A DNA stretch of 64,000 nucleotides from Eubacteriaceae bacterium (GTDB taxonomy: Bacteria > Bacillota > Clostridia > Eubacteriales > Anaerofustaceae), in the NCBI GenBank assembly GCA_009782515.1, contig WRIY01000002.1, forward strand, positions 1 through 64,000, in the 5' to 3' direction. Below the pieces are notes generated by a model. It did no database searches. It saw nothing but the letters and a program-made list of their open reading frames with translations, and was not told where the DNA came from. How positions within the stretch are numbered: the first letter of the stretch is position 1; every line of letters begins with the position of its first letter. Of the stretch, positions 90-2,566 are shown one piece after another. The position numbers were made by a program, and so were the translations under genes.

Positions 90-242
90 CAATTTGTGCC
101 TAGAAAACTTTGGACTGTTAAGAAAACTGAAAAAAACCACTCTCCAGAATAAAGACATCTATGCTAAATACTGTTATTTCGGCTTCGAATAAACAGCAAC
201 GCAAGCGGGAAAACTGTTCTAAGTAACAGGAGGTTGCTTGCT

Positions 243-548
243 TTGCTTAACAAAGTTGAAATTTGCGGTATCTCTACTGCCTCATTGCCAAAGGTAAAAC
301 AACAAGAAGTAGAAACAATGCTTAGACGCATCAAGAATGGGGAAGAGGAATTAAAGGAAGAGTTTATTCGGAGCAATTTGAGGCTTGTCTTAAGCGTTGT
401 ACAGAAATTTAACAATAAGAAAGAAAATCTGGACGATATATTCCAAATAGGGTGCGTTGGCTTAATAAAGGCCATAGACAATTTCGACTTCAGATTTAAT
501 GTGAAATTTTCTACCTATGCCGTGCCAATGGAAATAGATAGTTGTTAA
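243..548 (+). pseudogene. sigG: truncated sporulation sigma factor, sigma-G-like
   Basis: The 101-residue product begins with NKVEICGISTASLPK, the hallmark amino terminus of sigma-G, the late forespore RNA polymerase sigma factor. It continues through region 2 (NLRLVLSVVQKFNN, FQIGCVGLIKAIDNFD, KFSTYAVPM) and then ends abruptly with EIDSC and a stop. Intact sigma-G proteins are around 250-260 residues, so the end of region 2 and regions 3 and 4 (the -35-reading helix-turn-helix) are absent, and nothing in 549-690 resembles them. AGGAGG at 228-233 is well placed for the TTG at 243 and too close to the TTG at 234. This is most likely a dead gene left by a deletion, suggesting that sporulation is lost or depends on another copy. 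A sequencing error cannot explain the missing ~150 residues. Confidence 0.8.
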
Positions 549-696
549 AATGGAATAATTTATATATATTGCCATAAAACCACACATCAATTTCTCTTTG
601 CCAGAACACATCTTGAGCCTATATCTGAGATGAGCAGCTTATGCGATGTGATATTGGCTTGTTGTCGCCAATATACTGTATATAGGAGAATTGAAG

Positions 697-1809
697 TTGC
701 GTAAACTACATATCGCGCTTATATGCGCTTTTTTGATCAATGCTGCATTTGCCACCCCAGTTGGAGCGTCTTCGAGAGCGCATGTTGTAATAGAGCAGAA
801 GACGAAAGCAATACTGTATGAAAACAATGCGCATGAGCGCCTGCCAATGGCGTCAACTACTAAAATAGCTACAGCTATAGTGGCAATAGAGTCAGGCAAG
901 CTCAATGAGACAGTGACTGTATCAAGCAGAGCCGCCGGAGTCAGCGGTTCCTCGCTGTACTTAAAGGCAGGGGACACAATCCAGCTTGGAGAGCTCATTG
1001 CTGCAACGCTGTTTGTCTCTGCCAATGATGGCACTGTAGCCATTGCAGAGCACATTGATGGCACGATGGAAAAGTTTGTTGACAGGATGAATGCTTATGT
1101 CAAAAAGCTCGGGCTTGAGAACACAAACTTTGCAAATCCCCATGGCTTAACAGCTGAGAACCATTACTCCACTGCATATGACTTAGCATATATAATGGCG
1201 ACAGCTATTGAAAATGAGACATTCCTAAAAATGGTCTCATCACAAACCTGGTCTGTAACGATAAACGGGGAAACGAAAATGTATTTGAACAAGGACCAGT
1301 TTTTATATCTGTACGAATATTCGATTGGTGGCAAAACAGGCTTGACAAGCGCAGCAGGGCGGTGCTTTGTAAGCGCATCAGAGCAAAACGGGCTTACTCT
1401 TTGCTCAACAGTGCTCAACAGCAGCAATATCTACAATGAATCTATAAATCTTATGAACACAGCATTCAGCGAGTATAAGCTCTCCTGCGCTGTGCGAAAA
1501 GGGGAGTATATAGCCACAGTGCCGATAGAAGGCGGACGCCAAAGCGAGCTTAAGCTAAAGTTTATAGATGATATATATGTTCCAACCAAGAAAAGCGAAC
1601 CGGATGATTTTAAAGTTGAAGCTTACTATGAAGAATACTTGCAGGCTCCAATAGCCAAAAACCAGATAATAGGAAAATACTACATCATATCCGGCCAGAA
1701 TGTGCTTATTGAAGGCAACATCCAATCCCCCAGAAGAGTAGTTGCCAAAGAGCCATTTGTCCAGGGATTTTTAAAGTGGTACAGGTATTTGCTAGAGCTG
1801 GCAGTATAA
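697..1809 (+). CDS. dacF: D-alanyl-D-alanine carboxypeptidase (S11 family)
   Basis: This is a penicillin-binding-protein-type D,D-carboxypeptidase that trims the terminal D-Ala of peptidoglycan stem peptides outside the cell. An amino-terminal hydrophobic signal (LHIALICAFLINAAFA) is followed by the three active-site motifs: STTK (SxxK nucleophile), SAND (SxN) and KTG in GGKTGLTS. The ~370-residue length fits the DacF group, including the beta-rich carboxy-terminal domain. GGAG at 685-688 favours the TTG at 697 (8-nt spacing) over the TTG at 691 (2 nt). DacF genes often sit beside sporulation sigma genes; here the neighbour is the broken sigG. The carboxy terminus (FLKWYRYLLELAV) could be an amphipathic membrane anchor. 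Confidence 0.9.
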   Translation: MRKLHIALICAFLINAAFATPVGASSRAHVVIEQKTKAILYENNAHERLPMASTTKIATAIVAIESGKLNETVTVSSRAAGVSGSSLYLKAGDTIQLGELIAATLFVSANDGTVAIAEHIDGTMEKFVDRMNAYVKKLGLENTNFANPHGLTAENHYSTAYDLAYIMATAIENETFLKMVSSQTWSVTINGETKMYLNKDQFLYLYEYSIGGKTGLTSAAGRCFVSASEQNGLTLCSTVLNSSNIYNESINLMNTAFSEYKLSCAVRKGEYIATVPIEGGRQSELKLKFIDDIYVPTKKSEPDDFKVEAYYEEYLQAPIAKNQIIGKYYIISGQNVLIEGNIQSPRRVVAKEPFVQGFLKWYRYLLELAV

Positions 1810-1813
1810 AAAA

Positions 1814-1881
1814 GAAAGACGCGTTTTCATCGCATCTCTCTCTGGCATTTATGTTAATTAAGAGGGGAAAATTTATTAGCA
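1814..1881 (-). repeat. direct repeat copy A; candidate minus-strand small RNA with terminator
   Basis: This segment is nearly identical to 1998-2064, and weaker similarity continues about 40 bp to the right in both. Read on the minus strand, each copy has a C-rich, CU-rich stretch (TTTTCCCCTCTT) followed by a GATGCG/CGCGTC hairpin and a T-rich tract (TTTCTTTTTTT here), the layout of a short RNA ending in an intrinsic terminator. The T-G pair in the stem is allowed only on the minus-strand RNA. No strong promoter is visible: TATTAT lies upstream with a poor -35. It could instead be only a terminator for dacF. Confidence 0.5.
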
Positions 1882-1997
1882 ATGCGATAATAGCATAGAA
1901 AGCTTTAGCCAAACTTAAAATCGCCAAAAACCTCCAAAAAATTTCATCATGCAAATTGCTTTTTCTATGTCTTTGCCAAAAGCCAGGCAAAAAATAA

Positions 1998-2064
1998 GAA
2001 AGACGCGTTCCTTCGCATCTCTCTCTGGCATTTATGTTAATTAAGAGGGGAAAATTTATTAGCA
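1998..2064 (-). repeat. direct repeat copy B; candidate minus-strand small RNA with terminator
   Basis: This is the second copy of the 1814-1881 repeat, 184 bp away. The hairpin loop differs (AAGGAA rather than ATGAAAA) while both stem arms are preserved, as is the C-rich segment. On the minus strand the hairpin is followed by TTTCTTATTTTTT, again terminator-like. A TAATAT hexamer occupies the equivalent upstream position. The rest of the 1810-2188 gap holds no gene that I can support. Confidence 0.5.
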
Positions 2065-2188
2065 CCACCATATTAGCGCTAAAAGCTTAAGCTAACCTTT
2101 ATGAATGAACTTTTTTTATTTATTTTTCGTTGGGCAAGCATGAACATAAACTTAGATCATTGCTCATATGATATTTTGGAGGACTGAT

Positions 2189-2566
2189 ATGGATAAAACA
2201 AAAATAGAGAACTTTCTAAAGCAATCAAAAGGAACGGTTTGGGGGTTTGCTGCTTTTATTTTATTGTTGGCTTTATGGGCTCTTGTAGGCTACATATTCA
2301 ATGTTAATAGCCAGGCTGCAGCTCTGGGCAGCTTCGTAATAATAAACCTATGCTTGGTAGGCGCTGGTTTTTATAAAGCCAACACTTCGGAAGGCAAAGG
2401 CTGGCTTAATGGGCTAATAGGCGGAGGCATGCTGCTCGCAGTGATTGCAGTTTTTGGCCTTATATTTCTGCAAGGGCGTTTTGATTTTATTGGGTTTGCC
2501 AAAAAATGCCCGCTATACCTGGTGGTGTCAATGATAAGCGGGATCATAGGCATCAACGTAAAATGA
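2189..2566 (+). CDS. small integral membrane protein, TIGR04086/YrzE-like
   Basis: The product is 125 residues with an amino-terminal charged stretch (MDKTKIENFLKQ) and about four hydrophobic segments (FAAFILLLALWALVGYI, AALGSFVIINLCLVGAGF, GLIGGGMLLAVIAVFGLIF, and a carboxy-terminal one). A GGAGG just upstream is correctly spaced for the ATG at 2189; an in-frame ATG at 2168 lacks such a site. Small membrane proteins of this kind are frequently found directly before the SCIFF gene in clostridia, which is the main reason for the family suggestion. Function is unknown. A role near SecDF or in SCIFF export is inference from position only. Confidence 0.65.
   Translation: MDKTKIENFLKQSKGTVWGFAAFILLLALWALVGYIFNVNSQAAALGSFVIINLCLVGAGFYKANTSEGKGWLNGLIGGGMLLAVIAVFGLIFLQGRFDFIGFAKKCPLYLVVSMISGIIGINVK

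Follow-up and report, generated by a model that had tools for sequence, protein, structure and literature searches.

Tandem minus-strand repeats beside dacF in an Eubacteriaceae genome: putative sibling small RNAs with an OmpR-type promoter box and a C-rich seed

Streptococci (CiaR and the csRNAs) and Listeria (LisRK and LhrC) use two-component systems with sibling small RNAs (sRNAs) that target ribosome-binding sites. The csRNAs are intergenic and 51-202 nt long, with a terminator behind them; each genome encodes several siblings, and an unpaired tract is complementary to the Shine-Dalgarno (SD) sequence and the AUG. Their promoters were predicted with TTTAAG-N5-TTTAAG, 10 nt from the -10 element, and CiaRH is present in all streptococci and apparently absent from other bacteria (PMC3091779). 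In S. pneumoniae, transporters are encoded by four of the six known csRNA targets (PMC4507080). LhrC1-5 of Listeria monocytogenes are multicopy siblings, all LisRK-dependent, whose UCCC motifs bind translation start regions; RsaE and FsrA are counted among the UCCC sRNAs as well (PMC4132741). The PmrA boxes contain head-to-tail CTTAAG/XTTAAT half-sites 5 bp apart, which are bound by an OmpR-family regulator (PMC3973317).

In our study, the window (the whole stretch analysed, 64,000 nucleotides of contig WRIY01000002.1 from an Eubacteriaceae bacterium) was found to contain two near-identical short direct-repeat units on the minus strand. The copies, at 1825-1916 and 2008-2099, were 85% identical and 183-184 bp apart, each flanked by a copy of AAGAAAGACGCGTT (1808-1825 and 1992-2009). 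On the minus strand, TTTTCCCCTCTTAATTAA was followed in both units by GAGAGAGATGCG-loop-CGCGTCTTTCTT and a T-rich tail; the same reading is also given as TTTTCCCCTCTTAATTAACATAAATGCC ahead of the GAGAGAGATGCG / CGCGTCTTTCTT hairpin. A preliminary description had measured the repeats at 68 bp. The repeats and their distance were reproduced, whereas the full duplicated unit, comprising promoter, transcript and terminator, was about 105 bp long, and the 2.67-Mb genome contained two copies only (blastn). The features of the locus were as follows.

2070..2101, minus strand: putative promoter of the upstream copy, with a TAAAG-N6-TTAAG direct repeat (2101-2086), a 10-nt spacer and -10 TAATAT (2075-2070); from pattern search of the own genome and alignment with relatives
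1989..2063, minus strand: predicted sRNA of the upstream copy, ~75 nt, its start placed 7 nt after the -10; from anatomy and folding
2037..2054, minus strand: single-stranded C-rich seed TTTTCCCCTCTTAATTAA of the upstream copy, an invariant core in nine aligned members, unpaired probability 0.94-1.0
1989..2025, minus strand: predicted intrinsic terminator of the upstream copy; from terminator scan and folding
1887..1918, minus strand: putative promoter of the downstream copy, with a TTAAG-N6-TAAAG direct repeat (1918-1903), a 10-nt spacer and -10 TATTAT (1892-1887); from pattern search and alignment
1805..1880, minus strand: predicted sRNA of the downstream copy, ~76 nt, its terminator tail overlapping the dacF stop codon; from anatomy and folding
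1854..1871, minus strand: conserved single-stranded C-rich seed of the downstream copy; from alignment of relatives and folding
1805..1843, minus strand: predicted intrinsic terminator of the downstream copy; from terminator scan and folding
691..1809, plus strand: dacF-like D-Ala-D-Ala carboxypeptidase gene (Pfam PF00768 and PF07943), convergent with the sRNAs; same neighbour in G001
2189..2566, plus strand: TIGR04086-family membrane protein gene (TIGR04086 above cut-off), divergent from the sRNAs; same neighbour in G001

The copies did not differ at any position from the predicted start to the last base of the 5' stem arm (38 of 38 and 12 of 12 bases, 50 in total). The promoter segment showed 24 of 37 identical positions, and the -10, the two TWAAG half-sites and the distance between them were all kept. 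A 34-nt stretch elsewhere in the genome (G000:C25:7081-7114, L003) matched the sRNA core at 79% with neither box nor C-run, and is possibly a decayed copy or a chance match.

The minus-strand hairpins were far more stable than shuffled sequences (z -6.1 and -4.4) and both were called as minus-strand terminators by the terminator scan. The plus-strand units folded near their shuffles (z about -0.5 and -0.1), since the stem pairing depends on G-U wobbles. The hairpin as a dacF terminator was ruled out by this plus-strand folding. In both predicted window RNAs the seed was unpaired, and the UUUUCCCCUCUUA tract was fully exposed. A sigma-70 consensus scan picked up neither unit promoter, because the box stands in for the -35 element.

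The conserved part of the unit was found by comparison with relatives. Whole-unit blastn over 198 genomes gave mostly chance hits and nonetheless exposed a conserved core: AATTTTCCCCTCTTAATTAA-type cores were present in G001 (three copies inside ~900 bp), G005 (two on one contig), G009 and G011, each with a different terminator. The exact 35-nt core had no match in a collection of genome contigs. Alignment of nine members showed the direct repeat AAGGTTnnnTnAAGGTT, the -10 at a constant distance and an invariant TTTCCCCTCTTA. With a sequence-only covariance model, G003, G004, G006 and G010 yielded weaker members, and G009 a second one; these likewise ended in unrelated terminators. By this covariance search, which the preliminary description had suggested, the unit was present in 9 of the 13 searched genomes of the same taxonomic family, own genome included, with at most three copies each; in four f1 genomes that contain the regulator gene considered below, the model detected no unit. 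A candidate RNA related to the units, which combines the box with a shorter seed (ACCCTCTTTC), was present in three examined genomes of genus g10 (L058, L059, L068) and scored just under the clear-hit range of the model.

The gene order in G001, a distant genus, was that of the window: dacF, opposite-strand sRNAs, TIGR04086, SCIFF, SCIFF maturase, secD and secF. The DacF proteins of the two were 43% identical, and the retention of seed and box at this distance therefore argues for selection. A mobile or REP-like element in two tandem copies, as near-identical direct repeats with a hairpin might suggest, is the least credible of all readings considered, given only two copies in 2.67 Mb, relatives that share short functional motifs and not the body, and a locus that is syntenic in a distant genus.

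The same comparison bears on whether the repeats are mere terminators, acting on minus-strand read-through or bidirectionally for dacF, with no RNA product. Terminator features are present in both hairpins, one of which lies directly against the stop codon of dacF; the plus strand, however, is without a stable stem and T-tract, there is no minus-strand gene in the vicinity that could require termination, and relatives keep the box and the C-rich tract but not the hairpin, which makes this reading highly improbable. The preliminary description had named a kept hairpin with a lost C-rich part as a case that would speak against it, and the reverse was found, as relatives swap their terminators. 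Its view of the hairpin itself as a conserved functional structure was not borne out, the terminators of relatives being unrelated and interchangeable. Its central proposal, sibling sRNAs read from the minus strand, each with a C-rich seed and a terminator of its own, is supported by the comparison of relatives, and on this sequence evidence the units are very likely sRNA genes.

The strongest feature, absent from the preliminary description, was a response-regulator box upstream of each unit. Both window copies contained the box and -10 consensus TWAAG-N6-TWAAG-N10-TANNNT, which had four matches in the own genome: the two units, one before an HPr-like gene and, probably by chance, one immediately before purH. 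The match before the HPr-like gene (G000:C22:16962-16993, L111) was a third good box with -10; the HPr-like gene has apparently lost its His-15 motif, and the next gene encodes a 280-aa protein without family match. Over 71 genomes, a stricter box pattern gave 19 matches vs. none for the reversed pattern. The box with -10 and CCCC gave 53 matches, representing 42 distinct loci in 24 of the 67 genomes of the order, vs. 5 for the reversed control. Of the order-wide loci examined, nearly all gave predicted RNAs 61-125 nt long with a terminator at the end; the matches in G037 and G017 look like chance. Outside the order the pattern was at background, with 14 distinct matches vs. 20 for controls in 372 genomes, and a phage collection contained nothing except an insignificant match in tape-measure genes.

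Compared with the csRNAs, the window units have the same box spacing and the same 10 nt to the -10, with one TAAAG half-site in the box of each copy. They also appear to share the intergenic RNA followed by an intrinsic terminator, as seen in the predicted anatomy, the presence of siblings, and the unpaired SD/AUG-complementary tract, for which the seed and an 18-nt complement in G001 provide the example, the own-genome matches being shorter. The differences are that CiaR drives the csRNAs whereas the likely regulator of the window units is another OmpR-family protein, and that in the window RNAs the seed UUUUCCCCUCUUA is close to the 5' end and is followed by a single terminator hairpin, whereas the pneumococcal seed sits between two stem-loops. 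The units were not assigned to the csRNAs, because that class requires CiaR dependence and CiaRH reportedly occurs in streptococci only (PMC3091779). The likeness to LhrC is looser and consists of sibling sRNAs, a two-component system and C-rich motifs for translation starts. LhrC contains three UCCC sites in loops and linker, whereas the window RNA has a single C-rich tract within its unstructured 5' half; the LisR-responsive element lies upstream of -53 (PMC4132741), whereas the window box overlaps the -35 position. RsaE/RoxS and FsrA share a C-rich tract that binds SD sequences. The PmrA boxes share head-to-tail half-sites and an OmpR-family regulator, but they drive protein genes, and no sibling sRNA set is described there (PMC3973317). 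Rfam gave no match at the gathering score in the window scan and nothing credible for the locus at high sensitivity, and the openly accessible papers searched contained no description of such an sRNA family. We rate the units as a new family with a proposed mode of action of a known, csRNA-like kind.

The units are very probably controlled by an OmpR-family regulator. A candidate gene, with a histidine kinase gene directly downstream, was found at G000:C2:76583-77254, 12.6 kb past the end of the window and at a distance of ~74 kb from the units; the region upstream of it contained no box. Its product was 52-55% identical to the regulator proteins of the f5 genomes, where the box drives a predicted C-rich intergenic RNA divergent from the OmpR-family regulator gene. 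In two f2 genomes the box was at the same place beside the same regulator orthologue; altogether, it was divergent from this orthologue in f5, f2 and four f1 genomes. In G002, G007, G008 and G012 the box lay upstream of a small zinc-ribbon gene, and likewise in G006 with one mismatch. The f1 and f5 orthologues have VEIY-type recognition helices in common. In a single-helix comparison, the helix of the C2 regulator (TVEIYIHYLRKKL) shared 7 of 13 residues with that of CiaR (VVEVYVSKVRKKL).

The box linkage in relatives makes it reasonably likely that the C2 regulator acts on the window units. Another OmpR-family regulator of the own genome, such as C16:28684-29352, is a less likely candidate, although several paralogues are encoded and the L121 promoter is box-like with one mismatch per half-site; the perfect boxes adjoin the C2-type regulator in f5, f2 and f1 genomes. 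Two paralogous OmpR-family regulator genes (L056 and L121) contained box-like promoters directly upstream, and the box may thus not be exclusive to a single regulator. The small zinc-ribbon gene (L206, L208, L209, L210, L200) has the box and is oriented divergently to the regulator gene; it is therefore probably an anchor member of the regulon. The regulator-divergent RNAs of f5 (L123-L126) were of another design, with several C-runs and a GGAACCA...TGGTTCC stem around CAACCCCCTTTTCCCTTTTCCC.

The preliminary description had proposed SD sites as targets. A G001 gene for the binding lipoprotein of an amino-acid ABC transporter has at its start TAAGAGGGGAAATTTATG, an 18-nt perfect complement of the G001 sRNA that spans the SD and the AUG (-27.6 kcal/mol for copy a). 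In the own genome, AGAGGGG...ATG sites were not significantly enriched (26 vs. 18 for the control), and its best matches, L178 with AAGAGGGGATATAAATG and L182 with AAGAGGGGAATTATG, are therefore candidates only; from their sequences, L178 appears to be a branched-chain amino-acid-type binding lipoprotein and L182 another lipoprotein. Over the order, AGAGGGG...ATGAARAA sites lay before mixed genes. The lack of overall enrichment and the mixed genes would also fit real two-component-controlled sRNAs whose main partner is a protein or another RNA (sponge), the SD matches being incidental. We consider this unlikely in view of the G001 complement and of the C-rich tracts of Gram-positive sRNAs, which are documented SD binders (PMC4132741), and the seed would probably act by SD blocking. 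Our confidence in the sRNA reading, in OmpR-family control, in the specific regulator and in SD blocking was judged, not computed.

In the proposed mechanism, a phosphorylated OmpR-family regulator, most likely the C2 product with the kinase from the adjoining downstream gene, would bind the direct repeat of 11-bp period at the -35 position and recruit RNA polymerase to the -10. The product would be a ~75-nt RNA with a single-stranded 5' half carrying UUUUCCCCUCUUAAUUAA and an intrinsic terminator at its end. Its C-rich tract would pair with AGAGGGG-type SD sequences, sometimes through the AUG, and block the translation of selected mRNAs, with transporter and lipoprotein genes foremost among the candidates. 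We regard the whole circuit, that is, tandem sibling minus-strand sRNA genes under two-component control with csRNA-like action, as probable. Its basis is the anatomy of box, -10, seed and terminator, the conservation, the synteny, the predicted seed accessibility and the box-regulator linkage in relatives, from which we infer transcription, activation (vs. repression), the identity of the acting regulator and the targets. Since a candidate regulator, promoter box, seed and first target are supplied, the circuit is directly testable.

The findings suggest that a comparable circuit is spread through an order of gut and rumen Clostridia that are largely uncultured. That a CiaR/PmrA-type regulator and sibling C-rich, SD-blocking sRNAs form an order-wide module, with fixed box and seed and freely exchanged terminators, has about an even chance in our judgement. 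If true, the module would either share ancestry with the CiaR-csRNA circuit or have reached the same design independently, and in both cases the csRNA circuit would be no streptococcal peculiarity; whether csRNA-type circuits are ancient or convergent can now be asked.

The neighbourhood also contained a truncated sigG (234-548, plus strand). A truncated sigG of another genus (G006, L048:1668-1988) ended at the same point, after ...FSTYAVPM. Both frames were open and 72% identical, and the 3' tails and downstream genes differed. The C-terminal half of sigG was found neither on the own contig C2 nor on the G006 contig C27. Random decay would not be expected to produce this shared break point, which is reminiscent of the splitting of a gene by a skin-like element.
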